NCBI GenBank assembly: GCA_945900965.1
Contig: CAMDKM010000006.1
Span: forward strand, 1-64,000
Origin: Bordetella parapertussis
GTDB lineage: Bacteria > Pseudomonadota > Gammaproteobacteria > Burkholderiales > JACQAP01
Length of the DNA: 64,000 bases
Direction: 5' to 3'
In this document: positions 27,494 through 63,782 of the stretch, one piece after another
Layout of the letters: each line of letters begins with the position of its first letter
Numbering within the stretch: position 1 is the stretch's first letter
The notes under the pieces: generated by a model
What the model was told of the DNA's origin: nothing
The model's database searches: none
What the model saw: only the letters and a program-made list of their open reading frames with translations
Made by a program: the position numbers and the translations under genes

Positions 27494-27690
27494 AGGGCAC
27501 AGAGGACACAGAGAGAAACGCCAAAACGTTGATTGTTTCTTTTTCCGTCGGGCAGAGATGTCGCATTGGAAGCCGGACGTGGTTCTCTGCAATCTCTATG
27601 ATTGTTGTGGCGTGTTCACGGATCGTAAGAAGAGTCCGAGCACATTTTGGTTGGGGTTTTCCTCTGTGCTCTCTGTGTCCTCTGAGGCTG
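27494..27690. repeat. Family A dispersed inverted repeat (A1)
   Basis: Left arm GCACAGAGGACACAGAGAG (27497 on) and right arm TCCTCTGTGCTCTCTGTGT then CCTCTGAGG (ending about 27687), with a loop of about 140 bp. A small ACGTGC-GCG-GCACGT palindrome (about 27464-27478) precedes it. It interrupts the livG-livF pair. Confidence 0.75.
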
Positions 27691-29646: not shown

Positions 29647-29808
29647 ACTCACCGCGGAGGACGCGGAGGTCGCGGAGGAAATTCAAAAGAAATTCGAAGT
29701 AAAGATTATCGAGAGTTCAGAATGCATGGGCATTGCACATTTTCATTCAGATTGTTTCTTTGGGTTTTCCTCCGCGTCCTCCGCGTCCTCTGCGGTGAAA
29801 GAGTTTGA
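29647..29808. repeat. Family A dispersed inverted repeat (A2)
   Basis: Left arm CTCACCGCGGAGGACGCGG then AGGTCGCGGAGGAA; right arm TTCCTCCGCGTCCTCCGCG then TCCTCTGCGGTGA. The arms are clear 9-bp units. The loop holds about 85 bp without an obvious core. Confidence 0.8.
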
Positions 29809-33956: not shown

Positions 33957-34099
33957 TTGAAACACGGAGAACACGGAGATCACGGGGAAAATACGTCAAA
34001 ACACCTTTCATCATGCTGTGACAAATGGGGCGAGCTTTTCCAACAGCCTGAAAAATGTTCTTTACTCCGTGTACTCAGTGTTCTCCGTGATTCCAAGGT
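33957..34099. repeat. Family A dispersed inverted repeat (A4)
   Basis: Left arm GAAACACGGAGAACACGG then AGATCACGGGG; right arm CTCCGTGTACTCAGTGTTC then TCCGTGATTCC. The loop contains AATGGGGCGAGC, which resembles half of the core hairpin. It lies between convergent genes. Confidence 0.8.
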
Positions 34100-35122: not shown

Positions 35123-36151
35123 TCACTCAATATACGCCCCGGACGCCCGAATGATCGGCGTCCATTTGTCAATTTCCGCTTTCAGCCAATCGCGCAACCC
35201 CTCCGGAGTCTGTTTTGCCTCGGGCACGATCTGGCCGCCGAACTCCACGACGCGTTTCACCAGGTCCGGGTCTTTCAGGGCGGCCTTCAATGCGGCGCCG
35301 AATTTGTCGAGCGCTTCCTTCGGTGTGCCTCTGGGGGCGTAGATACCGTGCCAGACCATGATCTCGAAGTCCTTCAGCCCCGATTCGCTGGCGGTGGGCG
35401 TATCGGGCAGGGCGGCGATGCGTTTGCGGGTGGTGGTGGCGTAGACCTTGATACGGCCGGATTTGATATGCGACAGAGTTTGGGTGCTCTGGTCGCACAT
35501 CAAATCGACGTGACCGCCTTCCAAGGCGACCATGGCAGGGCCGGTGCCCTGATAGGGCACGCTGGTGAGCGCGAGATCAAGCGATTTTCGCAGCAACATG
35601 GCGCATAACTGCGATACGGCGCCCGGACCCGCATCGCCAATGTTGACCTTGTCGTTGTTGGTTTTCAGGTAGGCGATCAATTCTTTCATCGTGGCCGGCG
35701 GCAAATCCCTGCGGCCGACGATAGTCATGGGAACGTCCAACACCTGTCCGACATAATCGAAACTGGTCAGCGGATCGTAGTCGAGCTTTTTGTACAGTGC
35801 GCCGGCCGTGGCCATGCCGTTATGGTGAATCAGGAAGGTGTAACCATTCGCTGGCGCCGCCGCGGCCAGCGCCGATGCTCGCGTGCCTCCGGCTCCGGTC
35901 CGGGTTTCCACGACAACCGCTTTGCCCAGCGTTTTCGACATCGATCCCGCGAGCAGTCGAGCGACGGTGTCGGTCGGGCCGCCCGCGGCAAATGGCACCA
36001 CCAGGGTGACAGGCTTCTCGGGCCAAGCTGCTGACGCGTTGCCTGTAAACAGGTGCCAACAAACGAAGGCTAACGCGACGTACCACGATGGCGGAGAAGG
36101 GAGTATTGGCCAACTTTTAAAACAGCGTACGGTCAAATGTTTTGCCGTCAT
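35123..36151 (-). CDS. Bug-type (tripartite tricarboxylate transporter) binding protein
   Basis: With the ATG at 36151 the product has 342 residues, a signal-anchor (PSWYVALAFVCWHLFTGNAS) and the Bug opening AAWPEKPVTLVVPFAAGGPT, DTVARLLAG. A TTG at 36172 with AGAGG just before it is an alternative start; that ribosome site lies in a family A arm (A5). These periplasmic proteins bind carboxylates. No TctA/TctB membrane pair is adjacent, which is usual for expanded Bug families in betaproteobacteria. Confidence 0.88.
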   Translation of the reverse strand: MTAKHLTVRCFKSWPILPSPPSWYVALAFVCWHLFTGNASAAWPEKPVTLVVPFAAGGPTDTVARLLAGSMSKTLGKAVVVETRTGAGGTRASALAAAAPANGYTFLIHHNGMATAGALYKKLDYDPLTSFDYVGQVLDVPMTIVGRRDLPPATMKELIAYLKTNNDKVNIGDAGPGAVSQLCAMLLRKSLDLALTSVPYQGTGPAMVALEGGHVDLMCDQSTQTLSHIKSGRIKVYATTTRKRIAALPDTPTASESGLKDFEIMVWHGIYAPRGTPKEALDKFGAALKAALKDPDLVKRVVEFGGQIVPEAKQTPEGLRDWLKAEIDKWTPIIRASGAYIE

Positions 36152-36172
36152 TGAGATTTCAAGTTTTTTCAA

Positions 36173-36211
36173 TTTTCCTCTGCGTCCTCCGCGTCCTCCG
36201 CGGTGAGAGAT
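36173..36211. repeat. Family A repeat, single arm (A5)
   Basis: One arm only: TTTTCCTCTGCGTCCTCCG then CGTCCTCCGCGGTGAGAG. Read on the - strand it ends in GCAGAGGAAAATTG, so it could supply the ribosome site of the Bug gene. Confidence 0.7.
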
Positions 36212-36219
36212 AAAAATGC

Positions 36220-37353
36220 TCAAAGTATTCGTTCACCAAACTTTCGCACTGCCGCTTCAGAAAGTTTCAGCCCCAACCCCGGCGTTTCATTGAGCGTGAG
36301 CCAGCCGGCGGCGATCTTAGGCGGATTTTCGAACAACTCCGCTTGCAACGGATCGCGTTCCGGGTCAGTGAAGGATTCGACGATACAGCCCGCCGGACTT
36401 GCCGCCACAATGTGCGCATGGATGAAGCAGTCGTGGTGGGGCGCGACTTGCACGTTGTTGAGTTCGCACAGGGCGGAGAGTTTGCGGCCTTCAGTGAAGC
36501 CGCCGAACATGGTGCAGTCGAATTGCAGGATCTGGATGGCCTGTTCTTCCAGCAAAGAGCGGCAACCGTAAGGGGTCAATTCGCTTTCACCGGCGGAAAG
36601 AGGAATACGAGTTTTTTGCGCGAGTAATTTGAGTTCGCGCCGGTCATCGGCCCAGCGCACTGGCTCTTCCAGCCAGCGCGGATTCAGTGGCTCCATCAGG
36701 CGGGCGGCTTCGATGGCGGTGGGCAGGTCCCAGCCGCGATTGACGTCGATCATCAGATGGTTATCATTGCCGATGACTTCGCGCACCAGCTCAAGGCGCT
36801 TCATGTCTTCCTTCAACGGCAAGCCGCCGGCCTTGGCCTTGAAGCCGGTATGACCCTGGGCTTTGAGCATCTGCATCTCGTCGCGCAACTCCGCCATGTC
36901 CTTGCCGTCGCGGTAATAGGCACAGGTGACATAACAGGGAACCTTGCTTCGAAATCCGCCGAACAGGCGATAGAGGGGTAATCCGGCGACTTTGCCGACG
37001 ATGTCCCAGCAGGCGATATCCATGGCGGAGGAAATCCGGATGAGCGCTTCGCGCGACCAGCCTTTTTCGTGTGCGAGGCGCTGCCAGGTCAGGGAAAACA
37101 GTTTCTGGTACAGCCGTTCCGGCGCCAGCGGATCTTCACCGATGATCTGATCGGCGATGCCACTTTTAAAGGCGTGAATGGCCGCCTCGATTGGCGTGTA
37201 GCTGGTGGCGATGCCGATGCCCTCGATGCCTTCATCGGTGTGCATGCGGACAAGGATCTCGTTCGCGCGGGGCACGATGAAATTGCTGACCCAGTGCGGG
37301 CGGCCGGTATCGGGGGCGCGCAGAATGTGGATTTCCAGTTTCGTGATTTTCAT
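36220..37353 (-). CDS. Mandelate racemase/enolase-superfamily enzyme (KxK subgroup)
   Basis: The 377-residue protein has the enolase-superfamily barrel: K172 and K174 (FKAKAGG), metal ligands D203 (IDVNRGW), E229/E230 (LEEPV) and E256 (AGESELT), and H306/H307 (APHHDCFIHAHI) as the opposing base. This is the layout of the mandelate-racemase subgroup, which includes acid-sugar dehydratases. The substrate is probably a hydroxy or sugar acid, fitting the uronate-dehydrogenase-like neighbour. It lies immediately upstream of the Bug gene on the - strand. Confidence 0.88.
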   Translation of the reverse strand: MKITKLEIHILRAPDTGRPHWVSNFIVPRANEILVRMHTDEGIEGIGIATSYTPIEAAIHAFKSGIADQIIGEDPLAPERLYQKLFSLTWQRLAHEKGWSREALIRISSAMDIACWDIVGKVAGLPLYRLFGGFRSKVPCYVTCAYYRDGKDMAELRDEMQMLKAQGHTGFKAKAGGLPLKEDMKRLELVREVIGNDNHLMIDVNRGWDLPTAIEAARLMEPLNPRWLEEPVRWADDRRELKLLAQKTRIPLSAGESELTPYGCRSLLEEQAIQILQFDCTMFGGFTEGRKLSALCELNNVQVAPHHDCFIHAHIVAASPAGCIVESFTDPERDPLQAELFENPPKIAAGWLTLNETPGLGLKLSEAAVRKFGERIL

Positions 37354-37377: not shown

Positions 37378-37612
37378 AAACGCTCTCACCGCGGAGGACG
37401 CAGAGGACGCGGAGGAAAACAAGAGCTAATAGTACTCAGCGTAAAATTCGCCGAGAGGGGCGCCAAGGCACTACCAGATAGTAGGTCTGTCTCGCCGCAT
37501 CAGAAATTGCACAACTGACTCACTTTAATTCTTTCCAGAAATCTTATTTCACTCGGCATTGTATTTGAAATTCCTCCGCGTCCTCTGCGTCCTCTGCGGT
37601 GAGAGAGTTATT
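37378..37612. repeat. Family A dispersed inverted repeat (A6)
   Basis: Left arm CTCTCACCGCGGAGGACGC then AGAGGACGCGGAGGAAA; right arm TTCCTCCGCGTCCTCTGCG then TCCTCTGCGGTGAGAGAG. The arms are almost perfect complements over 35 bp. The loop (about 140 bp) contains ATTCGCCGAGAGGGGCG, a core-like hairpin. Confidence 0.85.
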
Positions 37613-37613
37613 T

Positions 37614-38456
37614 TTATTCAGAGAAAAAATCAAGCAAGGCTTTGGTGATTTCGTTAGGTTTTTCTTCGGGCATCCAGTGCCCGCAATCTTCCACCACGCC
37701 GCCGCGAACATCTACCGCCACACGTTGCAGGGAATCGAGGGTATCGCCGCCGCGCCCGAAGGCCTTGCCGCCGCCAAGCGCCAGCACCGGCATTTTGAGT
37801 TTGCCGCGCTTGAGCAAGGCCTGGTTGTGGGCGACATCTTTATCCAGTACGCGGTAATAAGCGAATCCAGAGCGCAGCGCGCCTTCCTGTCGATAAGTGC
37901 GAAGGTATTCGGCAATTGCCTCCGGGTCGATGGCGCCGGGCTGATGGCCGTAGTTCCGGTAGAACCAGCCGAGGTAAATGTCTTCGCGACCGGCGACAAG
38001 TGCCTCCGGCAGATCGGCGGTTTGATGAAAGGCGTGATGCCAGCGGCGTCCGTGTTGGGAGAAGGTGCCGCTGCCGTCGCCGGGAACTCCGGTATCGAGC
38101 ATCGCCAATTTGCGCACCAACTCGGGATAGGTCGCCGCCAGACAAAAGGCCACCGGGCCGCCCCAATCGTGGCCCACCAGCAGGCAGCGTTCGATGCCGA
38201 GATGATGCAGCAGCTTGCGAATGTCTTCCGCGAGGGTGGCTTTGTCGTAACCGCCCGCCGGGCGGGTGGAGTCGCCCAGGCCGCGCAGGTCGGGCGCAAT
38301 CACGTCGTAGTGTTGGGCCAGGGCCGGAATGATCTTGTGCCAGGCATACCAGCTCTGCGGCCAGCCATGCAGCAGCACAACAGGCTCGCCCTTTCCGGCG
38401 CGCACGTAATGCAACACCACTTCGCCGGCATCGTAATAGGAATGAGTCAGGGACAT
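37614..38456 (-). CDS. Alpha/beta hydrolase (epoxide-hydrolase/dehalogenase-like)
   Basis: The start at MSLTHSYYDAGEVVLHYVRA gives 280 residues; the longer frame runs into the next gene. Motifs are LLHGWPQSWYAWH (oxyanion HGWPQ), nucleophile elbow VGHDWGGPVA with an Asp nucleophile, and late ...VEDCGHWMPEEKPNE with the catalytic His. An Asp nucleophile with HGWP is the pattern of epoxide hydrolases and haloalkane dehalogenases. The next upstream gene (38477) is a related haloacetate dehalogenase. Confidence 0.85.
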   Translation of the reverse strand: MSLTHSYYDAGEVVLHYVRAGKGEPVVLLHGWPQSWYAWHKIIPALAQHYDVIAPDLRGLGDSTRPAGGYDKATLAEDIRKLLHHLGIERCLLVGHDWGGPVAFCLAATYPELVRKLAMLDTGVPGDGSGTFSQHGRRWHHAFHQTADLPEALVAGREDIYLGWFYRNYGHQPGAIDPEAIAEYLRTYRQEGALRSGFAYYRVLDKDVAHNQALLKRGKLKMPVLALGGGKAFGRGGDTLDSLQRVAVDVRGGVVEDCGHWMPEEKPNEITKALLDFFSE

Positions 38457-38476: not shown

Positions 38477-39346
38477 TCAGGAAAAAAACGCCAGCAATTC
38501 TCTTGTGGTTTCTTCGGGCTGTTCTTCGGGGAGGTAGTGGCCGCAATCGAGCGAACGCCCACGCACGTTGTCAGCCCAGCCGCGCCAGACGGCAAGCGTG
38601 TCGTACCACTGCTCCAGACGGGCCTGTGCGCCCCATAGAACGAGCAGCGGCGCGCGGATGCGGCGGCCGGCTTTTTGGTCAGCCGCGTCGTAATCGCAAT
38701 CGATGTTCGCGGCGGCACGGTAGTCTTCGCAGATGGCGCGCACGGTCTCCGGATCGCGGAAACATTCGAGGTAATCCCTGAGGGCCTCCGGCGCGAAAAA
38801 ATCCCTTGGGCCCCGCGCGGTATGCCAGCGCCAGAACCAGTCGGGATCGGCCATGATCAGACGCTCGGGTAGCGGCGCGGGCTGGGCGAGGAAAAACCAG
38901 TGGTAATAACCCATGCCGAATTCCCGGCCACCGCGCGCAAAAGCTTCTTCCGTCGGAATGATGTCGAGCACGGCCAGCTTCGTGACAATCTCCGGATGAT
39001 CCAGTGCCATCCGATACGCGACTCTTCCGCCGCGATCATGTCCCGCCACCATGAAAGCGGAATGGCCCAGCTTTTTCATGACGGCGATCTGGTCGCGCGC
39101 CATGGATCGTTTGGAATAATGAATATGGTCCGGCGTGGAAGGCGGTTTGCCGCTTTTGCCATAACCGGTCAGGTCGGTGACCACGACGGTGAAGCGTTTC
39201 GCCAACTCGGGTGCCACTTGATGCCACATGAGATGCGTTTGCGGATTGCCGTGCAACAGAAGCAGAGGCGGGCCGCTGCCGCCGATGCGGGCGCGGATTT
39301 TCACCGTGCCCGTGTCGATGTAGGTTAATTCGAAATTGTCGAACAT
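38477..39346 (-). CDS. Haloacetate (fluoroacetate) dehalogenase homologue
   Basis: The 289-residue alpha/beta hydrolase carries the fluoroacetate dehalogenase catalytic set: D104 and R105 (GHDRGGR), R108, D128 (LDIIPT), H149 and W150 (YYHWFF), Y209 (EDYRAAA) and H270 (DCGHYLPEE). In studied enzymes the Asp displaces halide and H149, W150 and Tyr cradle it. Numbering nearly equals that of the Burkholderia enzyme. The product would be glycolate, which could feed the nearby dehydrogenases. Activity on fluoroacetate rather than chloroacetate or another substrate is not provable here. Confidence 0.85.
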   Translation of the reverse strand: MFDNFELTYIDTGTVKIRARIGGSGPPLLLLHGNPQTHLMWHQVAPELAKRFTVVVTDLTGYGKSGKPPSTPDHIHYSKRSMARDQIAVMKKLGHSAFMVAGHDRGGRVAYRMALDHPEIVTKLAVLDIIPTEEAFARGGREFGMGYYHWFFLAQPAPLPERLIMADPDWFWRWHTARGPRDFFAPEALRDYLECFRDPETVRAICEDYRAAANIDCDYDAADQKAGRRIRAPLLVLWGAQARLEQWYDTLAVWRGWADNVRGRSLDCGHYLPEEQPEETTRELLAFFS

Positions 39347-39415
39347 GGAGTCTCGCTAATACGGCCTATCGGGATGCGATTCGAGCGACGCGGGCCGATT
39401 GTCGGCTTTTTCGCC

Positions 39416-39481
39416 GCCCCCTCTCCCCTAGCGGGACAAGGGAACACTTGAAGCGCAGCAGAGAGTGGGGAGAGGGGGGTA
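39416..39481. repeat. Family C repeat with spacer (C5)
   Basis: CCCCCTCTCCCCTAGCGGG at the left and GAGTGGGGAGAGGGGGG at the right, separated by about 30 bp. It lies between the dehalogenase gene and the end of the TRAP permease gene. Confidence 0.6.
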
Positions 39482-39485
39482 ACTA

Positions 39486-40823
39486 CTACTGCACCGCCCT
39501 TGGCAGCCACAGAGCAATCTCTGGCCACAGCAGCACCGCCAGCAGGCAGAGAACCTGGATGATCATGAAATTGCCCATGCCGCGATAGATCGTGCTCAGG
39601 CTCCATTGAGGCATGACGTTCTTGAGGTAATACGCCGACATCGCCACAGGCGGACTGAGGAACGCGGTCTGAAGATTAATGGCGACCAGCGCGCCGAACC
39701 AGATCATCAGCTCTTGTGGTTCCAAGCCGAGATTCAACTTTGCCACCACCGGAACAAATATCGGTAGAAATACCAGAATCACCGCCGGCCATTCGAAAGG
39801 CCAGCCGAGCACGAAGATCAAGGCCATGATCAGCAGCAGTTTTCCCATGTCCGGCAACGGCACTTGGGAAATCGCATTGGCGATCAGGTCGGTTGCGCCG
39901 AGTTTGGTGAATACCGCACCGAAGACAGTCGAGGCCACCGCCAGGAATAACACCATGCTCGAGGTAATCATCGCCGACATGGCCGCGCTCTTGAGCGCTT
40001 TTTTGCTCAGCTTTCCATAGGCCGCGGCGAGCAGGGTGGCGCCGACCGCGCCGCAGGAAGCGGCCTCGGTGGGGGTGGCCAGTCCGGCCAGTATGGTGCC
40101 TAGCGTGAATCCGATGAGCAGTGTCAGCGGCACGACGCCGATCAGGAATTCGCGCGCCAATTCGACTTTGTCCGTTACCCGTTCGGCCAGGGGGACAGGG
40201 GGACCAAGTTCGGGTTTCAGATGGCTGCGGACCAGGCAGTAGATGATGTACATCGCTGCCAGCAGCAAACCGGGGCCGAAGGCCGAGGCGTACAGAAGAT
40301 TCACCGGCACGCCAATGGTCGGGCCCATGACCACCAGCATGACGCTGGGTGGAATCAGAATGCCGAGTGTGCCGCCGGCCGCGATGGCGCCGGCCGACAA
40401 TTTGGCGTCATAACCCGATCGCACCATCACCGGACCGGCCATGATGCCGAGAACAGTGACGGCCGCACCCACAATGCCGGTAGCCATCGCAAATATGGTT
40501 GCGGTCAGGATAACCGAGAGGTACAACGAGCCGCGTAGCGGCGCGAGCACATTGCGCATGGCGAGGAACAAGCGTTCCATCAAACCCGCCTGCTCGGTCA
40601 TGAAGCCCATGAAAATAAACAGCGGCACCGCGGGCAGGATGTCATCCTTCATCGTGCCCCAGATTTGCAGGTAGGCCAGATTGAAGGTGAGTTCAGCACC
40701 CAGGCCGACCGCGCCGAAGAACAGCGCAATGAACAACAGCGTGAAGGCTATCGGAAAGCCCACGAAGATGATGCTGATCATCGCGACCAGCATGCATAGG
40801 CCGAGAATTTCCTGTCCGCTCAT
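39486..40823 (-). CDS. dctM: TRAP transporter large permease (DctM)
   Basis: The start at MSGQEILGLCMLVAMISIIF gives 445 residues; an in-frame upstream extension (LCDLCDLCALCGE) is repeat-encoded and not genuine. The protein has about 12 helices with DctM motifs such as IAFTLLFIALFFGAV, AGGTLGILIPPSVMLVV, LATPTEAASCGAVGAT and FLSPPVAMSAYYLK. It forms the membrane complex with DctQ (41015) to import an acid bound by a DctP protein. Confidence 0.9.
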   Translation of the reverse strand: MSGQEILGLCMLVAMISIIFVGFPIAFTLLFIALFFGAVGLGAELTFNLAYLQIWGTMKDDILPAVPLFIFMGFMTEQAGLMERLFLAMRNVLAPLRGSLYLSVILTATIFAMATGIVGAAVTVLGIMAGPVMVRSGYDAKLSAGAIAAGGTLGILIPPSVMLVVMGPTIGVPVNLLYASAFGPGLLLAAMYIIYCLVRSHLKPELGPPVPLAERVTDKVELAREFLIGVVPLTLLIGFTLGTILAGLATPTEAASCGAVGATLLAAAYGKLSKKALKSAAMSAMITSSMVLFLAVASTVFGAVFTKLGATDLIANAISQVPLPDMGKLLLIMALIFVLGWPFEWPAVILVFLPIFVPVVAKLNLGLEPQELMIWFGALVAINLQTAFLSPPVAMSAYYLKNVMPQWSLSTIYRGMGNFMIIQVLCLLAVLLWPEIALWLPRAVQ

Positions 40824-40837
40824 TTGCAAACCCCAAA

Positions 40838-40985
40838 TTTCGCCACAGAGGGCACAGAGATCACAGAGATCACAGAGAAACACGACAGCAGTGATTTCAA
40901 GGCACCTTCACCAAAGGGGCGACGTGTTTTTTCGTGGAACATCATGGCCTTTTCTCTGTGTGCTCGGTGCTCTCCGTGGGTCCGA
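40838..40985. repeat. Family A dispersed inverted repeat (A7)
   Basis: Left arm GCCACAGAGGGCACAGAGA then TCACAGAGATCACAGAG; right arm TCTCTGTGTGCTCGGTGCT then CTCCGTGGG. The loop holds CCTTCACCAAAGGGGCGA, a core-type sequence. It separates dctM from dctQ, which are normally adjacent. Confidence 0.8.
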
Positions 40986-41014
40986 TCGTTTTTCGATTTC
41001 ACGATTCTTCCCGG

Positions 41015-41590
41015 TCAAATTTCAATTTTCTCGTGATGCACGAGGAGTTTGCCGGTGCGGGCGGCCCACAGACTCTTGAGCAGTTCCGATATGCCCTGCA
41101 GGAACAGCAAGGCCGCGGTAAGCGGAACAACAGCGCGGAACGGCCACAGGATCGGCTGCCAAGGGGTGAGAGTGGAGCGTTCGGCGATCGAAATGGCATA
41201 GGTCAATTCGTCCAGTGACATGTAACACAACACAGCCATCGTGGGCAGGAACAGCACGATGTAGGCAATGCTGTCGATCAGGCCCTTGGTTCGGTCGGAG
41301 AATTTTTCCCAGAACATGTCGGTGCGTACATGGGCGCCTTTCTGCAAGGCGTAAGCGGCGCCGAGCATGAACAGTGCGCCGTAGGACATCACGGTCGTTT
41401 CCATCGCCCAGTCGGTGGGTCTGCCCAGGACGTAACGCATGAACACTTCAATCGTGTTTGCCAGCACCAAGGGCACGACCAGCAATGCAATGAGGTAGGC
41501 GGCCCACAGGTTGAGCTTGTCGAGCCCGCGAATCGCCTGCAGATAACCTGCCGGCGGCTGGCTCGCCTGACTGTTCGTAGGGCTGGCCAT
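41015..41590 (-). CDS. dctQ: TRAP transporter small permease (DctQ)
   Basis: The start at MASPTNSQASQPPAGYLQAI gives 191 residues with four helices. DctQ motifs include EVFMRYVLGRPTDWAMETTV and LFMLGAAYALQKGAHVRTD. Reading on upstream adds sequence that overlaps the dctP gap, so the shorter start is preferred. It lies between dctM and three dctP genes. Confidence 0.88.
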   Translation of the reverse strand: MASPTNSQASQPPAGYLQAIRGLDKLNLWAAYLIALLVVPLVLANTIEVFMRYVLGRPTDWAMETTVMSYGALFMLGAAYALQKGAHVRTDMFWEKFSDRTKGLIDSIAYIVLFLPTMAVLCYMSLDELTYAISIAERSTLTPWQPILWPFRAVVPLTAALLFLQGISELLKSLWAARTGKLLVHHEKIEI

Positions 41591-41615
41591 CAGACGTAAC
41601 GCTCCGGGGAACTGT

Positions 41616-42710
41616 TCATTTCTTTTCCGGCCAGTAGTAATCGGCGCCCATGTTGTAAGGGGCATAAACATTTCGCCTGGCTGGCACGACCTTGGAGGCA
41701 AACTCCCGTTGGGAGTCGTAGACTTTTTTGAAGAACGGGTTTTTCGCTACTTCCTCCTTGGCGATCTGATCCCAGCTCTCGAGAATTTTGGGGATGATGT
41801 CCGGCGGAGTGCGCTCCACCTTGACACCGTGCTTTTCTCTGAGCTCCACCAATGCATCGGCATTAAGCCGGTTCATGACCAGTTGCGAGCGCAAGGTGGC
41901 ATCGAAGGCAGCCGATTTGATGATTTCCTGGAAATCCGCGGGCAGTTTTTTCCACACGTCGCCATTGATCATGAGTTCCGCGGCGGTGGCCGACTCATGT
42001 ATCGAGGGCATGTAAACGTACTTCCAGACTGTGTGGAAGCCGATGCGCATGTCCTCAGCCGGGCCAACGAATTCCGCGCAGTCGATGACGCCGCGTTGTC
42101 CGGCGGGCACGATTTCGCCGCCGGGCATGTTCACGGTATTCATGCCGGACTTGGCGAACACCTCGGCGGTTATGCCGGTTTCACGGCACTTTCGGCCCTT
42201 AAGGTCTTCCCAGTTCTTGATCGGCTTCTTGAACCAGCCCAGGATCTGCGAACCGCCGGAAGTCATCGGCATCACGATGACATTGCGCTGGAGTTCTTTT
42301 TGATAGAACTCCTGATACAGCGCCAATCCACCGCCTTCGTGAATCCAGCCAAGATAGTCAAGCAAGTCGAAGCCGAACGGTCCACCGGGTGCCGGGCCGA
42401 ACAGGGTCGCCGCGCGGTTTTTGCCCAGCCAGTAGGCCGCGGCCGTGTGCCCGCCGTCGAGCACGCCCTTGTGGATGGCATCGAGCGATTCGAATGCCGG
42501 CACCACCGCGCCGGGCGGCAGCATCTCGATCTGCAGCCGGCCGCCGCTCATCGCCTTGACACGTTCGATGAAGTACTTCGCGTTATCGAAGAACAGCGTC
42601 GAAGCCGGAAATACCGATTGGAACCGCAGCTTGGTGACCGTCTGCGCTGAAGCGGATGCCGAAGCAACGAGCATTGCGAATGCAACGGCAATAATACGAG
42701 CGAATTTCAT
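41616..42710 (-). CDS. dctP: TRAP transporter binding protein DctP, paralogue 1
   Basis: The start at MKFARIIAVAFAMLVASASA (GAGGAGACGACC upstream) gives 364 residues with a Sec signal. Family motifs: VTKLRFQSVFPASTLFFDN, LQIEMLPPGAVVPAFESLDA, WEDLKGRKCRETGITAEVFA and GMNTVNMPGGEIV. The conserved Arg in GRKCRE is the carboxylate anchor of DctP proteins. It directly precedes dctQM. A - strand terminator separates it from paralogues 2 and 3. Confidence 0.9.
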   Translation of the reverse strand: MKFARIIAVAFAMLVASASASAQTVTKLRFQSVFPASTLFFDNAKYFIERVKAMSGGRLQIEMLPPGAVVPAFESLDAIHKGVLDGGHTAAAYWLGKNRAATLFGPAPGGPFGFDLLDYLGWIHEGGGLALYQEFYQKELQRNVIVMPMTSGGSQILGWFKKPIKNWEDLKGRKCRETGITAEVFAKSGMNTVNMPGGEIVPAGQRGVIDCAEFVGPAEDMRIGFHTVWKYVYMPSIHESATAAELMINGDVWKKLPADFQEIIKSAAFDATLRSQLVMNRLNADALVELREKHGVKVERTPPDIIPKILESWDQIAKEEVAKNPFFKKVYDSQREFASKVVPARRNVYAPYNMGADYYWPEKK

Positions 42711-42836
42711 GGTCGTCTCCTCATACACATTTTTGAATTCTGTCGGATCGCATCGGACAACCGATTCCGACGATCCTGCAGCGAAAGCATAACCTCTTTT
42801 CCTGCCCAGTGGCTTAAGTCCGCAAGTTTATAGGCC

Positions 42837-42859
42837 AAAAACCGCGCCATCCCGGCGCG
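42837..42859 (-). terminator. Intrinsic terminator (- strand) between dctP paralogues 2 and 1
   Basis: On the - strand, CGCGCC (42859-42854) pairs with GGCGCG (42848-42843) around GGGAT, and five T residues follow (complement of the A-run 42837-42841). It would end transcripts of paralogues 3 and 2 before paralogue 1. Confidence 0.65.
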
Positions 42860-42906
42860 CTGAGTCCCGGAAACAAAGTTCGAGTCGCGCGCCGAGTGCC
42901 TGCGGG

Positions 42907-44001
42907 TTATTTTTTCTCCGGCCAGTAGTAGTTCGCGCCTAATTCATAAGGGGCATAAACGTCGCGCCGGGCCGGAACCACCTTGGAGGCGAAATCCCGC
43001 TGCGAGTCGTACACTTTCTTGAAGAACGGACTTTTTGCGACTTCTTCCTTGGCGATCTGATCCCAGATTTCGAGCGTCTTCGCCAGGATATCCGGCGGTG
43101 TGCGTTCGATATGCACACCGTGTTTTTCCCGCAATTCCAACAGCGCCTCGGCATTGAGTTTGTTGGAGATCAATTGCGAGCGCAGGGTCGCCTCCATGGT
43201 CGCGGTCTTGATAATCTCGCGCTGATCATCCGGCAGCTTTCTCCAGATATCGGTGCCGATGATCAGCTCCAGCACGGTGGCAGGCTCGTGAACCGACGGC
43301 ATGTAGGTGTACTTCCACACCGTGTGCAAGCCGACCTTCATGTCTTCGGCCGGCCCAACCCACTCGGCACATTCGACAACCCCGCGCTGACCCGAGGGCA
43401 CAATTTCACCGCCCGGCATGTTTACCGTGTTCATGCCGGATTTGGCGAATATTTCCGCGGTGATGCTGGTTTCCCGGCATTTTCGGCCCTTCAGGTCTTC
43501 CCAGCTTTTTACCGGTTTTTTGAACCAGCCCAGAACCTGATTGGCCGCCGAGGTCATCGGCAGGACAACGACATTGCGCTGCAATTCCTTTTGATAGAAA
43601 TCCTGGTACAGCGCCAGTCCGCCGCCTTCGTATATCCAGCCCAGGTAGTCGAGCATGTCCATGCCGAAAGGTCCGCCAGGCGTCGGTCCGAAAAGAACAG
43701 CGGCGCGGTTTTTCCCAAGCCAGTAGCCTGCCGCCGAATGCGCACCGTCGAGAACTCCCTTGTGAACCGCGTCGAGCACTTCGAACGGCGGCACCACGGA
43801 GCCCGGCGGCAGGATGTCGATCAGCAGCCGGCCGCCGCTCAATGCCTTGACGCGGTCAGCGAAATATTTTGCGTTTTCGAATATATAACCCGACGGCGGA
43901 AATACCGATTGGAATCGTAGCTTGGTCTGTGCGGCAGCCGGAGCCGCCAACAACGCGGCCACCAGGGTACTGACAGCAATGACAGATCGAGATAAACGCA
44001 T
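42907..44001 (-). CDS. dctP: TRAP transporter binding protein DctP, paralogue 2
   Basis: This 364-residue protein starts MRLSRSVIAVSTLVAALLAA (signal, AAA-QTK) after GGGAGGTTCTT. The core is nearly the same as paralogue 3: LRFQSVFPPSGYIFENAKYF, WEDLKGRKCRETSITAEIFA, SGMNTVNMPGGEIVPSGQRG. Differences cluster in the region lining the ligand pocket, e.g. DIWRKLPDDQREIIKTATME. No membrane subunits of its own are present, so it must share DctQM or be an orphan. Confidence 0.9.
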   Translation of the reverse strand: MRLSRSVIAVSTLVAALLAAPAAAQTKLRFQSVFPPSGYIFENAKYFADRVKALSGGRLLIDILPPGSVVPPFEVLDAVHKGVLDGAHSAAGYWLGKNRAAVLFGPTPGGPFGMDMLDYLGWIYEGGGLALYQDFYQKELQRNVVVLPMTSAANQVLGWFKKPVKSWEDLKGRKCRETSITAEIFAKSGMNTVNMPGGEIVPSGQRGVVECAEWVGPAEDMKVGLHTVWKYTYMPSVHEPATVLELIIGTDIWRKLPDDQREIIKTATMEATLRSQLISNKLNAEALLELREKHGVHIERTPPDILAKTLEIWDQIAKEEVAKSPFFKKVYDSQRDFASKVVPARRDVYAPYELGANYYWPEKK

Positions 44002-44080
44002 AAGAACCTCCCGTAAAGTCGTACTTCAGTCAGCGTTCAGGTGGTCGGTTACCGAACAATCCCGCGATATTGCCGCCGGA

Positions 44081-45193
44081 CTATTTTTTCTCCGACCAGT
44101 AGTAATCGGCACCCATCTCGTACGGCGCATAAACATTGCGTCTTGCCGGTACGACTTTGGAAGCGAATGCACGTTGCGAGTCGTAGACTTTTTTAAAGAA
44201 CGGACTTTTTGCCACTTCCTCCTTGGCGATCTGATCCCAGATTTCAAGTGTCTTGGCCAAAATGTCAGGCGGCGTGCGCTCGATCTTGACGCCGTGTTTT
44301 TCCCGCAATTCCACCAGTGCCTCGGCATTGAGTTTGTTGGATATCAATTGAGAGTGCAGCGTGGCTTCCATGGCCGCCGACTTGACGATCTCGCGCTGAT
44401 CGTCGGGCAACTTTTTCCATACGTCGGCGTTGATCAACAGTTCCAGAACGGTGGCGGGTTCGTGAACCGAGGGCATGTAGGCGTACTTCCACACCGTGTG
44501 CAAGCCGACTTTCATGTCTTCCGCCGGACCGGCCCACTCCGCGCATTCAATGACGCCGCGCTGACCCGACGGGACAATCTCGCCGCCCGGCATGTTCACT
44601 GTATTCATGCCGGACTTGCTGAATATCTCAGCGGTGATACTGGTTTCGCGGCACTTGCGGCCCTTCAGGTCCTCCCAGTTTTTAACCGGCTTCTTGAACC
44701 AGCCAAGTATTTGATTGGCCACCGAAGTCATCGGCATGACCACCACGTTGCGCTGCAATTCCTTTTGATACAAGTCCTGATACAACTCCAATCCGCCGCC
44801 TTCGTGAATCCAGCCCAGGTAGTCGAGCATGTCCATGCCGAAGGGTCCGCCGGGCGCCGGACCAAAGAGGACGGCTGCCCGGGTCTTCCCCAGCCAATAT
44901 CCGGCAGCCGAATGCGCACCGTCGAGAACGCCTTTGTGAACTGCATCGAGCACTTCGAACGGTGGCACAACTGCGCCGGGCGGCAGGATGTCGATCAGCA
45001 ATCGCCCGCCACTAAGTGCCTGTACGCGCTCGGCGAAATATTTCGAGTTCTCGAATATGTAACCCGACGGTGGAAATACCGATTGGAACCGCAGCTTGGT
45101 GACCGATTGCGCGGACACCGTCGTCGATGCCAGCGCAAATATGCAGGAGACGGCCAACATTCTTGCAAATTTCATGACAATCATCTCTTTCAT
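44081..45193 (-). CDS. dctP: TRAP transporter binding protein DctP, paralogue 3
   Basis: The 370-residue product has MKEMIVMKFARMLAVSCIF as its leader. The ATG at 45193 lies 5 nt after a perfect GGAGG contributed by a family A arm (A8); Met7 at 45175 is the start matched by the other paralogues. Core motifs match paralogue 2 over most of the length. It is the promoter-proximal member of the tandem set. Confidence 0.88.
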   Translation of the reverse strand: MKEMIVMKFARMLAVSCIFALASTTVSAQSVTKLRFQSVFPPSGYIFENSKYFAERVQALSGGRLLIDILPPGAVVPPFEVLDAVHKGVLDGAHSAAGYWLGKTRAAVLFGPAPGGPFGMDMLDYLGWIHEGGGLELYQDLYQKELQRNVVVMPMTSVANQILGWFKKPVKNWEDLKGRKCRETSITAEIFSKSGMNTVNMPGGEIVPSGQRGVIECAEWAGPAEDMKVGLHTVWKYAYMPSVHEPATVLELLINADVWKKLPDDQREIVKSAAMEATLHSQLISNKLNAEALVELREKHGVKIERTPPDILAKTLEIWDQIAKEEVAKSPFFKKVYDSQRAFASKVVPARRNVYAPYEMGADYYWSEKK

Positions 45194-45195
45194 TT

Positions 45196-45236
45196 TTTCC
45201 TCCGCGTCCTCCGCGTCCTCCGCGGTGAGAGATTTT
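45196..45236. repeat. Family A repeat, single arm (A8)
   Basis: One arm: TTTCCTCCGCGTCCTCCGC then GTCCTCCGCGGTGAGAG. Its - strand end reads GGAGGAAAAAATG, joining directly to the start codon of dctP paralogue 3. Confidence 0.75.
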
Positions 45237-45258
45237 AAGTACGTTCTTTTCGATCCGG

Positions 45259-46311
45259 CTACGAAGGCAGGATGACACCCTTGCCGGAAGTCTGTTTGTC
45301 GAAGAGTTGATAAGCCTCCTCGGCCTGCTCCAGCTTCCAGCGGTGGGTAAATAATTTATCGAGGTCGATTTCGCGATCCGCGACATAACGCGCGCAATCG
45401 GCCTGACCGACGGTCGAGAACGTCCATGAACCGATGATCGTAACTTGCCGGCGCAGAATGTCGTTGCTCACATCCAGGGTAACGGAGTCGCCTTCCCCGA
45501 CGAAACAGGCCTTGCCCCAGGTGCGCACACATTTGACCGCCTGTGCACGCGCCTGCGGCGACGAGGACGCATCGAGCGAGGCGTGGGCGCCGCGTCCATG
45601 CGTCACATCCTTGATGGCTTGCACGACATTTTCGACCTTGGCCGGATTGATCAGGATGTCGGCGCCGAATTCCTTCGCGCGCGCCAGACGTTCCTCGCTG
45701 GTATCCAGCGCAATCACCCGGGCACCCAGTTCGGACGCCAGCAGCGTGGCCGACAGGCCAACCGGTCCCTGGCCGAAAATTGCAATGGTCTGGTCGCCGA
45801 GCAGGTCCAGCCTGTGCAGCGCGCCCCAGGCTGTGCCGGTGCCGCAGGAAATCGCGGCACCCGCTTCGAAAGACAATTCTTCCGGCAGCGGTACCAGGGT
45901 GCGCGCCGGGCATTTCATGTAGCGCGCGTGGGCGCCATGGCCGGTGGCGCCGTAAACTTCCTTGACACCTTCGACGCACAATTGCATCCAGCCGGTGTTG
46001 CAGTGTTCGCACACGCCGCAGCCGCGGTAGTGGTGCTGCATTACGCGCATGCCGACCTGGGCCTGGTTGGCCGCCACACCCGGCCCGACCGCGGCAACCA
46101 CACCGCAAGGCTCGTGTCCGGCGACCAGCGGTCCGCTGATCGTGCCCAGGCCCAGCGACGACGCGCCGCCCACCGCACGGTAAAACTTCAGGTCGCTTCC
46201 GCACATGCCGGAAGCCTTGATCTCCAGCACCACCTCGCCCGGACCCGGTGTGGGATCCGGAAAGTCCAAAATTTCCAGCTTGCGATTACCGGGGAATACC
46301 ACGCCTTTCAT
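45259..46311 (-). CDS. Zinc-dependent alcohol dehydrogenase (MDR family)
   Basis: The 350-residue protein has catalytic zinc ligands C37 (GMCGSD) and H66/E67 (AGHEPCG), and structural zinc cysteines C98, C101, C104 and C112 (GCGVCEHCNTGWMQLC). The Rossmann motif is IFGQGPVGLSATLLASELGA. It oxidises alcohols or polyols with NAD(P). The adjacent aldehyde dehydrogenase (46551) could take the product further to an acid. GGAGAG precedes the start. Confidence 0.9.
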   Translation of the reverse strand: MKGVVFPGNRKLEILDFPDPTPGPGEVVLEIKASGMCGSDLKFYRAVGGASSLGLGTISGPLVAGHEPCGVVAAVGPGVAANQAQVGMRVMQHHYRGCGVCEHCNTGWMQLCVEGVKEVYGATGHGAHARYMKCPARTLVPLPEELSFEAGAAISCGTGTAWGALHRLDLLGDQTIAIFGQGPVGLSATLLASELGARVIALDTSEERLARAKEFGADILINPAKVENVVQAIKDVTHGRGAHASLDASSSPQARAQAVKCVRTWGKACFVGEGDSVTLDVSNDILRRQVTIIGSWTFSTVGQADCARYVADREIDLDKLFTHRWKLEQAEEAYQLFDKQTSGKGVILPS

Positions 46312-46341
46312 TTTTCTCTCCTTTGGATTCTTAAATGCTGT

Positions 46342-46540
46342 TTTGAATCACGGAGCACACGGAGAACACGGAGGGAAGGCAGAAGCTGACACTGGGCGCT
46401 TCGAAGCATTCACTGGATATTGATCTGCGGCGGAAGCTTCGTGACGCCTGTTCCCGAACAAGCTGTCAGGTTTTCACCCAGAAACGCTTTCCCTCGTTTT
46501 GTTTTTCTCCGTGTCCTTTGTGTCCTCCGTGTTTCACTCC
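46342..46540. repeat. Family A dispersed inverted repeat (A9)
   Basis: Left arm TTGAATCACGGAGCACACG then GAGAACACGGAGGG; right arm CTCCGTGTCCTTTGTGTCC then TCCGTGTTTCA. The loop is about 125 bp and contains inverted GAAGCTTC-type sequence rather than the usual core. Confidence 0.75.
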
Positions 46541-46550
46541 TGGTTTCGTT

Positions 46551-48026
46551 TTAGCGAAGCACAAACGGGTTGCCGGTTGCGGCGCCGGTGTTGATCCACA
46601 CGCTCTTGACTTGCAGGTATTCGCGGATGCCTTCCTGTCCGCTTTCGCGTCCCAATCCGGAATCCTTGTAACCGCCGAAGGGCGACAGATAACTCACCGC
46701 GCGGTAGGTGTTGACCCACACGGTGCCGGCCTGGAGGCGCTCCGACATGCGGATGGCGCGACCGATGTCACTGGTCCACACGCCTGCGCCGAGACCGAAG
46801 CGGATGTCATTGGCGATCTGCAAGGCTTCTTCTTCGTCCTTGAACTTGATGACGGACAACACCGGCCCGAAGACTTCTTCCTGGGCGATGCGCATGTTGT
46901 TTTTCACCCCGGTGAATACCGTCGGCTCGACGAACCAGCCGTCGCCGCATTCCGGCCGCGTGGCCGGACCGCCGCCCAGTGCCAGCGTGGCGCCGTCCTT
47001 CTTCGCCACGTCGATGTAACTCAGTACCTTTTCGTATTGCGGACGGGTGGTGATCGGGCCGACCTGGGTTTCGGTGCTCATCGGGTCGCCCATGCGCGCG
47101 GTCTTCGCCAGCGCGATCAGCTTTTCCATGAATGCATCGTGAATGCCTTCCTGAAGCAGCAGGCGCGAACCGGCGATACAGGTCTGCCCGGTGGCCGCGA
47201 AAATGCCGGACACCGCGCCGTTCACCGCGTCTTCAATTTTTGCGTCGGCAAACACGATGTTCGGCGATTTTCCGCCGAGTTCCAGCGTCACGCGCTTGAA
47301 GGTTTTCGCGGCGATTTCGTTGATCGCGCGGCCGGTGCCATCCGAGCCGGTGAACGCAATCTTGCGCACCAGCGGGTGCGAGGTCAGGCTGCCGACGTCT
47401 TTTCCGAATCCAGTCACTACGTTCACCACTCCGGGCGGGAAGCCCGCTTCTTCCACCAGCTTCACGAATTCGACTGTGGAAGCCGAGGTAAATTCGGAAG
47501 GCTTTATTACCACGGTATTGCCCGCCGCCAACGCCGGGGCGAGCTTCCATGCCAGCAACAGCAGTGGCGAATTCCAGGCAGTAATTGCAGCCACCACGCC
47601 CAGCGGCTCGTAGCGGGTGAAGTTGAAATAACCCTTCTTGTCCAGCGGAATCACCGCACCCTGGATCTTGTCGGCCAGGCCGCCGAAGTAGTAGTACCAC
47701 TGGGGGACGTAATTGACCTGGCCCAGCATTTCCGAGATCAGTTTGCCGTTGTCGCGCACTTCGGTTTCGGCGAGCTTTTTCGCATCGCGCGCGATCAGTT
47801 CGCCGAGCTTGTGGACCAGCAGTCCGCGCTGGCTGGCGGTGAGCTGCGGCCAGGGCCCGGTGGTGAACGCGCGGTGCGCGACCTGCACGGCACGATCCAC
47901 GTCCTGGGCATCGCCCTGCGCCACCTGCGCCCAAACCTTGCCGGTGAACGGGTTGTAGCTGTCGAACCATTTGCCGGAGGCGGAATCGACGAATTTTCCG
48001 TCGATGTACATCTGGTATTTCTGCAT
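46551..48026 (-). CDS. NAD(P)-dependent aldehyde dehydrogenase
   Basis: The ATG at 48026 (AAGGAG six nt upstream) gives 491 residues starting MQKYQMYIDGKFVD. The fold is complete: Rossmann NTVVIKPSEFTSAS, catalytic E249 in LELGGKSPNI, catalytic C283 in ATGQTCIAGSR and late EEVFGPVLSVIKF. It converts an aldehyde to a carboxylic acid. It lies between the alcohol dehydrogenase and a ketopantoate-reductase-like gene on the same strand, suggesting one oxidation route. Confidence 0.92.
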   Translation of the reverse strand: MQKYQMYIDGKFVDSASGKWFDSYNPFTGKVWAQVAQGDAQDVDRAVQVAHRAFTTGPWPQLTASQRGLLVHKLGELIARDAKKLAETEVRDNGKLISEMLGQVNYVPQWYYYFGGLADKIQGAVIPLDKKGYFNFTRYEPLGVVAAITAWNSPLLLLAWKLAPALAAGNTVVIKPSEFTSASTVEFVKLVEEAGFPPGVVNVVTGFGKDVGSLTSHPLVRKIAFTGSDGTGRAINEIAAKTFKRVTLELGGKSPNIVFADAKIEDAVNGAVSGIFAATGQTCIAGSRLLLQEGIHDAFMEKLIALAKTARMGDPMSTETQVGPITTRPQYEKVLSYIDVAKKDGATLALGGGPATRPECGDGWFVEPTVFTGVKNNMRIAQEEVFGPVLSVIKFKDEEEALQIANDIRFGLGAGVWTSDIGRAIRMSERLQAGTVWVNTYRAVSYLSPFGGYKDSGLGRESGQEGIREYLQVKSVWINTGAATGNPFVLR

Positions 48027-48048
48027 CACGATCTCCTTGATGGGGGCG

Positions 48049-48984
48049 TTAGCTGCGTACGCCCATTTTTTTCTCTTTGGTGCGCACCAGCGCGCTCACG
48101 ACGGTATTGAAAGGGGTATCGATGCCGACGAGCTTTCCTGTGACGGGAATTGCGCCGTTGATGGCATCGATTTCCGACATCCGCCCCGCCATGTGATCCA
48201 GCAGCATGGAAGGACGGGCATTGGGAATTTTTGAACCGAAGTTACGCACGTAGGCGACCGGGTCATCGAAATCGACGCGGATTTTTTTCGCCTTGGCGAC
48301 CTGGTAAGCCTCGGCTGCGCAGCCGGACGCAACCTGCCAGGCCTGGGGATCCTGCATAACTTCGCCGACGGTCAGTTCCGTGAGCGAACAGGTGCCGGAA
48401 AAACACACGTTGCAGATGAGTTTTTCCCAGACCAGTTGATCGATATCGTCGAAGCACTTCACCTTGAATCCGCCGGAGCGCCAGACTTCGGCGATATTTT
48501 CGAGCCTGGGTGTGACGGGACTGGCGAATTCGCCCAAGCGGACCAGCTCCCAGCCGTTGTGATGGGCATGGCCCGGGCCCTTCATCGAGGCGCCGAATCC
48601 GCCCACGACGCCGACCATCATCCGTTCGCGGCCAATGATGCGCGCCGCGGTATCGGGGCCACCCAGCCCGTTCTGAATGGAGAGCACTACGGTTTGGGGC
48701 CCGATCAGGGGCTGCGCCGACTTTGCAGCCTGCTCGACGTGCATCGTTTTGGTGGCAAGGATGACCAGATCACAGGGACCGGCATCTGCCGTGTCGGTGG
48801 TTGCATGTACGGCAACTGTGCGGCTGCCGGAAGCGCCTTCCAGACGCAGGCCATTCGCGCGCATGGCATCCACGTGTTCGCGCCAGGAATCGATCGCCCA
48901 GACGTCGTGTCCGGTCGATCCGAGCAATGCCGCATAGACGCTGCCCATGGCGCCGCAGCCAAGTACCGCGATCTTCAATCTCAC
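48049..48984 (-). CDS. 2-dehydropantoate 2-reductase family protein
   Basis: The 311-residue protein has the NADPH motif KIAVLGCGAMGSVYAALLG, NGLGGPDTAARIIGRERMM, the catalytic-lysine region VWEKLICNVCFSGTC and the C-terminal RPSMLLDHMAGRMSEIDAIN, which are PanE/ApbA blocks. The start is GTG at 48984. In this catabolic setting it may reduce or oxidise another 2-oxo or hydroxy acid instead of serving pantothenate synthesis. Confidence 0.88.
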   Translation of the reverse strand: MRLKIAVLGCGAMGSVYAALLGSTGHDVWAIDSWREHVDAMRANGLRLEGASGSRTVAVHATTDTADAGPCDLVILATKTMHVEQAAKSAQPLIGPQTVVLSIQNGLGGPDTAARIIGRERMMVGVVGGFGASMKGPGHAHHNGWELVRLGEFASPVTPRLENIAEVWRSGGFKVKCFDDIDQLVWEKLICNVCFSGTCSLTELTVGEVMQDPQAWQVASGCAAEAYQVAKAKKIRVDFDDPVAYVRNFGSKIPNARPSMLLDHMAGRMSEIDAINGAIPVTGKLVGIDTPFNTVVSALVRTKEKKMGVRS

Positions 48985-52017: not shown

Positions 52018-52156
52018 TTGAATCACGGAGAACACGGAGATCACGGGGTAAAACATTGAGATATTTTTCTTGGTACGTTCTCCATTTGGGCGAGAGGCCA
52101 GAGCATTATCGAGTTCTCGGATTTGCTCGGTGCACACCGTGTTCTCCGTGATTCAA
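52018..52156. repeat. Family A dispersed inverted repeat (A10)
   Basis: Left arm TGAATCACGGAGAACACGG then AGATCACGGGG; right arm ACACCGTGTTCTCCGTGAT then TCA. The loop has TTCTCCATTTGGGCGAGA, the core-type hairpin. It lies between convergent genes. Confidence 0.85.
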
Positions 52157-63608: not shown

Positions 63609-63782
63609 CCTAAAAACCGCAGTTCAGCCACAGAGGACACAGAGATCACAGAGATCACAGAGAGAAACAACGGGTTATTTGTCGATGCCCGTTCACCAAT
63701 TAGGTGAGAAGCTCGATCACACTAGGTTCTTGGTTTTCCTCTGTGTACTCTGTGTACTCTGTGGCCAAGTGCTTTTTCTAGG
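63609..63782. repeat. Family A element with defined ends (A12)
   Basis: Opens CCTAAAAACCGCAGTTCAGC and closes CCAAGTGCTTTTTCTAGG. Arms ACAGAGATCACAGAGATCA and TCTGTGTACTCTGTGTACT are 9-bp units. The core GTTCACCAATTAGGTGAG matches that of A11. Length 174 bp. Confidence 0.85.

Follow-up and report, generated by a model that had tools for sequence, protein, structure and literature searches.

A transporter locus of Bordetella parapertussis carries three tandem genes for DctP-type receptors ahead of a single pair of membrane subunits, DctQ and DctM, of the tripartite ATP-independent periplasmic (TRAP) type. It lies within a stretch of 64,000 nucleotides (GenBank assembly GCA_945900965.1, contig CAMDKM010000006.1, positions 1 to 64,000 of the forward strand), referred to here as the window. 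The locus is a real case in which only the receptor gene of a TRAP system was multiplied, long ago, and the copies were retained; this pattern is recurrent and little described. The gene order on the minus strand is P3, P2, and P1 (the three receptors), followed by DctQ and DctM:

44081 to 45193, minus strand: P3, DctP-type substrate-binding protein (PF03480, E = 2.3e-36)
42907 to 44001, minus strand: P2, DctP-type substrate-binding protein (PF03480, E = 5e-37)
41616 to 42710, minus strand: P1, DctP-type substrate-binding protein, adjoining DctQM (PF03480, E = 1.5e-39)
41015 to 41590, minus strand: DctQ, small TRAP membrane subunit (PF04290, E = 4.8e-26)
39486 to 40823, minus strand: DctM, large TRAP membrane subunit (PF06808, E = 2.1e-57)

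An earlier reading of this DNA by a model (the original prediction) had described three tandem DctP genes beside one DctQM, and both parts of that description were confirmed. The receptor genes correspond to three full-length minus-strand open reading frames (ORFs) at 41616-42728, 42907-44001, and 44081-45193, each matching PF03480, and the sole DctM match inside the window is at C6:39516-40790. The likely start of P3 is the ATG at 45175 (MKFAR...), its ORF running from the ATG at 45193; the P1 ORF is open from the GTG at 42728; and the ATG of P2 is preceded by GGAGG. For DctM, whose ORF is open to 40883 (39486-40883), the ATG at 40823, just past a repeat element, was picked by eye. With these starts, the intergenic gaps are 79 bases (P3-P2), 196 bases (P2-P1), 25 bases (P1-DctQ), and 185 bases (DctQ-DctM). 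DctQ (PF04290) and DctM (PF06808) adjoin the receptors, completing a TRAP transporter. The three receptors score 126 to 136 bits against PF03480 (cut-off, 23.4) and 65 to 69 bits against NF037995 (cut-off, 50), and they miss the cut-off of the stricter TIGR00787 subfamily (39 to 49 bits; cut-off, 175). Each carries a leader that ends, by eye, in AxA, and all three are probably exported, periplasmic receptors. The carboxylate-binding arginine R177 is present in P1, P2, and P3 and is invariant in 21 sequence rows.

The copies separated long ago. P3 and P2 are 85% identical in protein and 83% identical in DNA, so the near-identity of these two paralogues in the original prediction was overstated; P1 is the more distant copy, as had been proposed (78% protein identity to P3 and 74% to P2). 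Nonsynonymous (dN) and synonymous (dS) divergence estimated by NG86 were 0.055 and 0.96 for P2-P3, 0.126 and 1.26 for P1-P3, and 0.148 and 1.25 for P1-P2, with all dS values near saturation and hence rough. A dS of about 1 led to the rejection of a recent amplification of DctP. In the columns that are constant among 10 close relatives, P3, P2, and P1 break 8, 8, and 5 of 112, and the corresponding counts for the relatives, with one omitted at a time, are 1 to 12 of 113 to 124; because the breaks of P1 to P3 fall within the range of the relatives, none of the three receptors looks decayed. Given dS of about 1 and dN of 0.06 to 0.15, all three copies have been kept for a long time: the amplification is old, and purifying selection has long maintained each receptor.

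In a 29-row DctP tree, P1 to P3 form one clade (support, 98/97) with P2 and P3 nested inside it (100/99); in a 19-row tree of the mature protein alone, support for the clade is 89/95. The nearest rows, L001 and L002, whose pairing is weak in the tree (83/44), come from Burkholderiales metagenome-assembled genomes (MAGs) in which a single receptor gene is followed by DctQ (76 and 80% identical to that of the window, respectively) and DctM (81% identical in both).

Two other relatives deserve mention in their own right. The DctP of a Rhizobiales MAG (L003:447-1547, on a 4.6-kb contig), 66% identical to P2, is followed by GST-like and thiC-like genes (named by eye) with no DctQ or DctM downstream on the contig, and it is possibly an orphan or transferred receptor. 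In a Burkholderiaceae MAG (L008:7593-9026), DctP is split over two reading frames, so that either the gene is broken or the assembly is wrong at this point.

The ligand of P1 to P3 is likely a cation-bound 2-oxo or 2-hydroxy acid, because the binding residues of TakP are conserved and because the best structural matches of a P3 model belong to receptors of this kind. TakP, the cation-dependent 2-oxo-acid TRAP receptor of Rhodobacter sphaeroides (2hzk/2hzl), is described in the available text of PMC1839085 as holding pyruvate by Arg177 and Tyr100 and the cation by Gln156, Glu214, the Trp215 carbonyl, and Glu240. In the phmmer alignment of P3, from which the correspondence was taken, TakP Tyr100, Gln156, Arg177, Glu214, and Glu240 are kept as Y94, Q156, R177, E214, and E240 in all three receptors. 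The Trp215 position is occupied by W215 in P2 and P3 and by F215 in P1, and TakP Tyr99 is replaced (by eye) by G93 in P2 and P3 and A93 in P1. An AlphaFold model of P3 (mean pLDDT, 87; 21 sequences), on which statements about the fold rest, has long C-terminal helices at 259-295, 304-324, and 326-346 and resembles TakP in fold (TM score, 0.82/0.89), whereas identity in the structural alignment is 26%, short insertions set the two apart, and the three receptor copies beside one DctQM are a feature of the window. The best solved structures found by Foldseek included 7ug8 (ketovalerate and calcium; TM score, 0.84/0.93), 4pet, TakP, 4yzz, 5cm6, and 2zzv (lactate and calcium). Among these best and close matches, the titles of 7ug8, a ketoacid-binding protein of Synechococcus CC9311, and 2zzv, the lactate receptor TTHA0766, name a cation plus a 2-oxo or 2-hydroxy acid; P3 is 30 and 28% identical to them, respectively, and the ligand class of the window proteins is predicted.

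Within this common frame the copies differ. P2 and P3 carry G93, S90, S180, and W215, where P1, L001, and L002 have A93, T90, G180, and F215. P1 differs from P2 and P3, themselves identical there, at 52 of 338 mature sites, which include 6 of 27, 9 of 37, or 10 of 47 pocket-adjacent positions; P2 and P3 differ from each other at 33 sites overall. The three copies might simply provide dosage or insurance, binding the same ligand and raising the receptor:carrier ratio, possibly under different promoters. Such a role would fit the cation and carboxylate ligands, which are identical in P1 to P3, the mere 2, 3, or 4 pocket-adjacent differences between P2 and P3 (27 to 47 sites), and the purine-rich, ribosome-site-like sequence that precedes P3 (at 45193), P2, and P1, the last with a leader of 196 bases. 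It is rather unlikely, however, given that dS is near 1 with all copies kept and that P1 has diverged at so many sites; as a rule, a plain gain in dosage does not last long or is homogenized.

If the three receptors share one carrier, no other carrier should be waiting for them. The assembly contains 12 DctP matches (three of them partial, one each on C12, at the edge of the contig, C58, and C67), 7 DctM matches, and 7 DctQ matches, and each of the seven DctM contigs (C6, C12, C13, C18, C43, C57, and C68) carries DctP. A separate DctQM for P2 and P3 was rejected on this ground. The original prediction had itself named the contrary outcome, paralogues akin to the receptors of other transporters and with their own DctQM elsewhere; this was not found, each of the six other DctM having DctP on its contig. 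As far as a draft of 103 contigs can tell, there is thus no obvious free carrier and no DctM that clearly waits for P2 and P3. Contig C23 has a DctQ match without DctM. The DctP on C55, C58, and C67 (two of them partial) have no DctM on their contigs and are possible orphan receptors in this genome.

P2 and P3 might also not feed this DctQM at all, acting instead in signaling, through chemotaxis or a sensor kinase, or with another membrane partner. Precedents are mentioned in two papers: PMC12344293 names orphan TRAP receptors as exceptions, and PMC5812351 treats carrier sharing and orphan receptors, with signaling suggested for the latter, in the TTT family. In addition, a 2.6-Mb genome of the same order that is 98% complete (G011; L049-L052) has 24 DctP domains for 4 DctM matches, one of them cut by a contig edge. 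Yet P2 and P3 are encoded near DctQM and have P1 as their closest kin, no sensor or chemoreceptor was named among the window neighbors scanned, and each other DctM in the genome has DctP on its contig, which makes this possibility very unlikely. Delivery by all three receptors to this DctQM is likely.

The explanation that we favor begins with one TakP-type P-Q-M operon in which the binding-protein gene would have duplicated locally twice, first separating P1 from the ancestor of P2 and P3 and then P2 from P3. All three receptors would bind a 2-oxo- or 2-hydroxy-carboxylate chelated to a cation and deliver it to the same DctQM. P1, which adjoins DctQM and agrees with the single-copy relatives in its pocket residues, would keep the original role, and P2 and P3 would have acquired substitutions close to the carboxylate clamp (A93 to G, G180 to S, and F215 to W). 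Because of these substitutions, the two probably have another side-chain preference, affinity, or expression; a difference in ligand or regulation among the receptors is plausible. Taken as a whole, with local duplications, three receptors feeding one carrier, an ancestral pocket in P1, and drift of P2 and P3 in specificity or regulation, we give this explanation slightly better than even chances.

Several results weigh against it. In the 19-row data set of the mature protein, a grouping of P1 with L001/L002 is not rejected by the approximately unbiased (AU) test (p = 0.083); trees of single segments keep the triplet weakly (69/82, 73/57, and 74/85); and counts of shared sites are nearly even, with 21 uniting P1 and P2/P3 versus L001/L002, 20 uniting P1 and L001/L002, and 18 uniting P2/P3 and L001/L002. 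Differences between P1 and P2/P3 are not enriched in the pocket (Fisher p = 0.14 to 0.28), and the likeness of the P1 pocket to those of L001/L002 rests on few sites. As for the carriers, DctM and DctP on C18 lie on opposite strands with no DctQ match, their pairing being uncertain, and the draft state of the assembly (96.8% complete) limits the carrier count.

The first of these results would also fit a different origin, in which L001/L002 have their true orthologue in P1, the ancestor of P2 and P3 is an older paralogue, and gene conversion made parts of them alike. In codon columns 34-130, P1 DNA is 81.6 and 80.6% identical to L001/L002 versus 75.0% to P3, and it is slightly closer to L001/L002 in columns 231-300 as well (74.8 and 75.2% versus 72.9%); in columns 131-230 and 301-375, it is nearer to P3 than to L001/L002. 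Sites 40, 215, and 271, moreover, tie P2/P3 to L003. Conversely, the triplet stays together in all three segment trees, however weakly, and residues common to the triplet versus L001, L002, and L003 (e.g., Q142, E178, and A351) are scattered along the protein, and we consider this origin unlikely. The segment trees are too weak to decide on a mosaic or gene-conversion history. The gene amplification of the original prediction is supported in the form of local duplication, which the 98/97 clade beside single-copy P-Q-M relatives in the 29-row tree favors and the AU result tempers. A wider or sharper ligand range for one carrier, suggested in the same prediction, is a possible role of the copies: P1 and the P2/P3 pair differ at sites beside the pocket, although without enrichment, and have the cation and carboxylate ligands in common. 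Local duplication at a P-Q-M locus appears to be the best reading of the sequences, well but not decisively supported, and a mosaic history has room beside it.

Among the four genomes of the genus, including that of the window, close copies of these receptors were found in the latter only; in genome G023, the two matches are distant (35 and 31%), and the two others have none at E = 1e-40. When 399 genomes of the order were sampled, 15 had a match at E = 1e-85 or better, the genome of the window alone having three and four genomes having two each; in a class sample of 369 genomes, the window's own was the one with a match (at most five candidates were scored per genome in both searches). Two of the four two-copy genomes have the order P-P-Q-M (L039 and L040), one has P-Q-M-P (L041), and one has its copies on two contigs (L042 and L043). 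In the 29-row tree, the paired receptors of L039, L040, and L041 belong to two clades (98/88 and 96/93), both separate from the triplet of the window; by this tree, therefore, a receptor gene beside this type of DctQM was duplicated at least twice.

Tandem DctP genes of any subfamily were surveyed in 21 genomes of the order, including that of the window (17 with matches; E of at most 1e-10 for a DctP domain), a run being defined by the same strand and gaps of up to 1,200 bases. The 134 DctP domains, a total that agrees with the counts summed over the genomes, fell into 121 runs, comprising 112 single, 6 double, and 2 triple runs and 1 run of four. Five of the nine multi-DctP runs lie directly before one DctQ and DctM (the window, G011:C17, G002:C9, G010:C106, and G018:C4). 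The other four do not: those on G011 contigs C52 (two runs) and C13 are without a DctM match, and near G016:C6 the DctQM is encoded on the opposite strand. This is a small sample, in which G011 alone supplies four of the nine runs; within it, the locus of the window is one case of a recurrent kind, tandem DctP before one DctQM. Contig C52 of G011 carries nine DctP matches and no DctM match, and the DctP set of this genome looks like a counterpart of the TctC/Bug expansion described in the available text of PMC5812351.

The closest parallel in gene order is G011:C17 (L049), where three tandem DctP, with copies 83, 75, and 73% identical, precede one DctQ and DctM (P-P-P-Q-M); unlike the receptors of the window, these belong to a distant DctP subfamily (25 to 26% identity to the nearest row outside the array), so that the same order occurs in another family. 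L039, L040, and L041, conversely, belong to the same TRAP family as the window (DctM 61 to 63% identical) and have a duplicated receptor, but in two copies and by a separate duplication in the tree. Their neighbors differ as well: a gene that Pfam labels "aminotransferase" and NCBIfam assigns to the PatB-family C-S lyases lies beside L039 and the single-receptor L042, and a PF00155 gene lies beside L040. Outside the TRAP family, the Cbc ABC transporters reportedly use several binding proteins per permease; they share with the window the idea of one carrier with several receptors, whereas they are ABC and not TRAP systems, and sharing in the window is inferred. In Pseudomonas aeruginosa, a second similar TRAP receptor has been proposed to serve IctQM (IctP/DctP; PMC12599236, available text), with receptors from two systems there and three copies beside one DctQM in the window. 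In the same paper, receptor interactions with the cognate membrane parts are termed "usually unique". For Bordetella pertussis, the accessible part of PMC5812351 describes two pyroglutamate-binding DctP, one with seemingly nonfunctional membrane components. Nothing on shared TRAP carriers appears in the available text of PMC10132767, PMC8276074, and PMC3180692, and a search of the open-access literature, as far as its text was available, found no description of tandem DctP genes with one DctQM.

The genes around the locus are all on the minus strand:

48049 to 48984, minus strand: 2-dehydropantoate 2-reductase family protein (TIGR00745, 247 bits; cut-off, 141)
46551 to 48029, minus strand: aldehyde dehydrogenase (PF00171, E = 2.7e-177)
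45259 to 46311, minus strand: zinc-type alcohol dehydrogenase (PF08240/PF00107)
38477 to 39346, minus strand: alpha/beta hydrolase downstream of DctM (PF00561, E = 1.7e-28)
37614 to 38456, minus strand: second alpha/beta hydrolase (PF00561, E = 2.2e-35; ORF to 38546, start picked by eye)

The first three lie upstream of P3, and the alcohol dehydrogenase is a possible operon partner of P3, with a gap of 80 bases by the starts used. A receptor gene at 35123-36223, TctC/Bug-like by eye and without an NCBIfam match, stands beside an enolase-superfamily gene. When the alcohol dehydrogenase, aldehyde dehydrogenase, ApbA, hydrolase, enolase, TctC, SDR, ArsB-like, and IDH proteins of the window were compared with 18 relative loci by tblastn, six distant matches (23 to 32% identity) were obtained, all in three loci (L004, L007, and L047), and none in L001-L003 or L039-L044. 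No pathway in common with the window was found among the neighbors scanned, 5 of L002 and 13 of L039-L044. Long plus-strand frames run antisense to P3/P2 (43922-45238, 438 codons) and to the aldehyde dehydrogenase (46518-48110, 530 codons); we read them as a by-product of codon use and not as genes.

Signals and repeats near the receptors are as follows:

42843 to 42859, minus strand: terminator-like hairpin and T run in the 196-base P2-P1 gap, no better than chance
40844 to 40978, no strand: repeat element between DctQ and DctM, each end made of 9-base direct repeats and the two ends inverted relative to each other
45198 to 45224, no strand: row of three exact 9-base units immediately ahead of P3; the GGAGG before the upstream ATG lies in the last unit

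The terminator that was said to cut off P1 has no support beyond chance: the hairpin at 42859-42843 (-12.2 kcal/mol; z = -1.49) could stop transcription between P2 and P1, but it is matched or beaten by 19 of 200 shuffles, and terminator-like sites number 9 versus 10.3 expected in shuffles. Sigma-70-like sites in 39000-48200 number 0 versus 3.4 expected. Rfam gave no match within the window at gathering scores. Intergenic repeat elements were seen at 27494-27684, 29653-29794, 33961-34089, 37390-37598, 40844-40978, 46349-46532, and 63629-63763, and single repeat arms were seen at 36176-36202, 45198-45224, and 52024-52046. The ends of the elements consist of two to four direct 9-base units (of the CACGGAGAA, CGCGGAGGA, and CACAGAGAT types), inverted around an unlike center. 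One 18-mer of these elements has 13 matches in the window versus 0.15 expected, and another repeat pattern has 81 matches in the genome versus 1 for the reversed control.

The broader suggestion, which we advance tentatively and hold at somewhat less than an even chance, is that TRAP carriers are often hubs: DctP duplication beside one DctQM would have been repeated in the order and its products long kept, with one carrier serving two to three receptors for different ligands. If true, this would contradict the working view of receptor and membrane part as an exclusive pair. Loci with three old, intact sister receptors before one carrier, to which a distant DctP subfamily offers at least one parallel, lend themselves to tests of how strict this pairing is, and they bear on whether TRAP systems gain substrates by receptor-only duplication.

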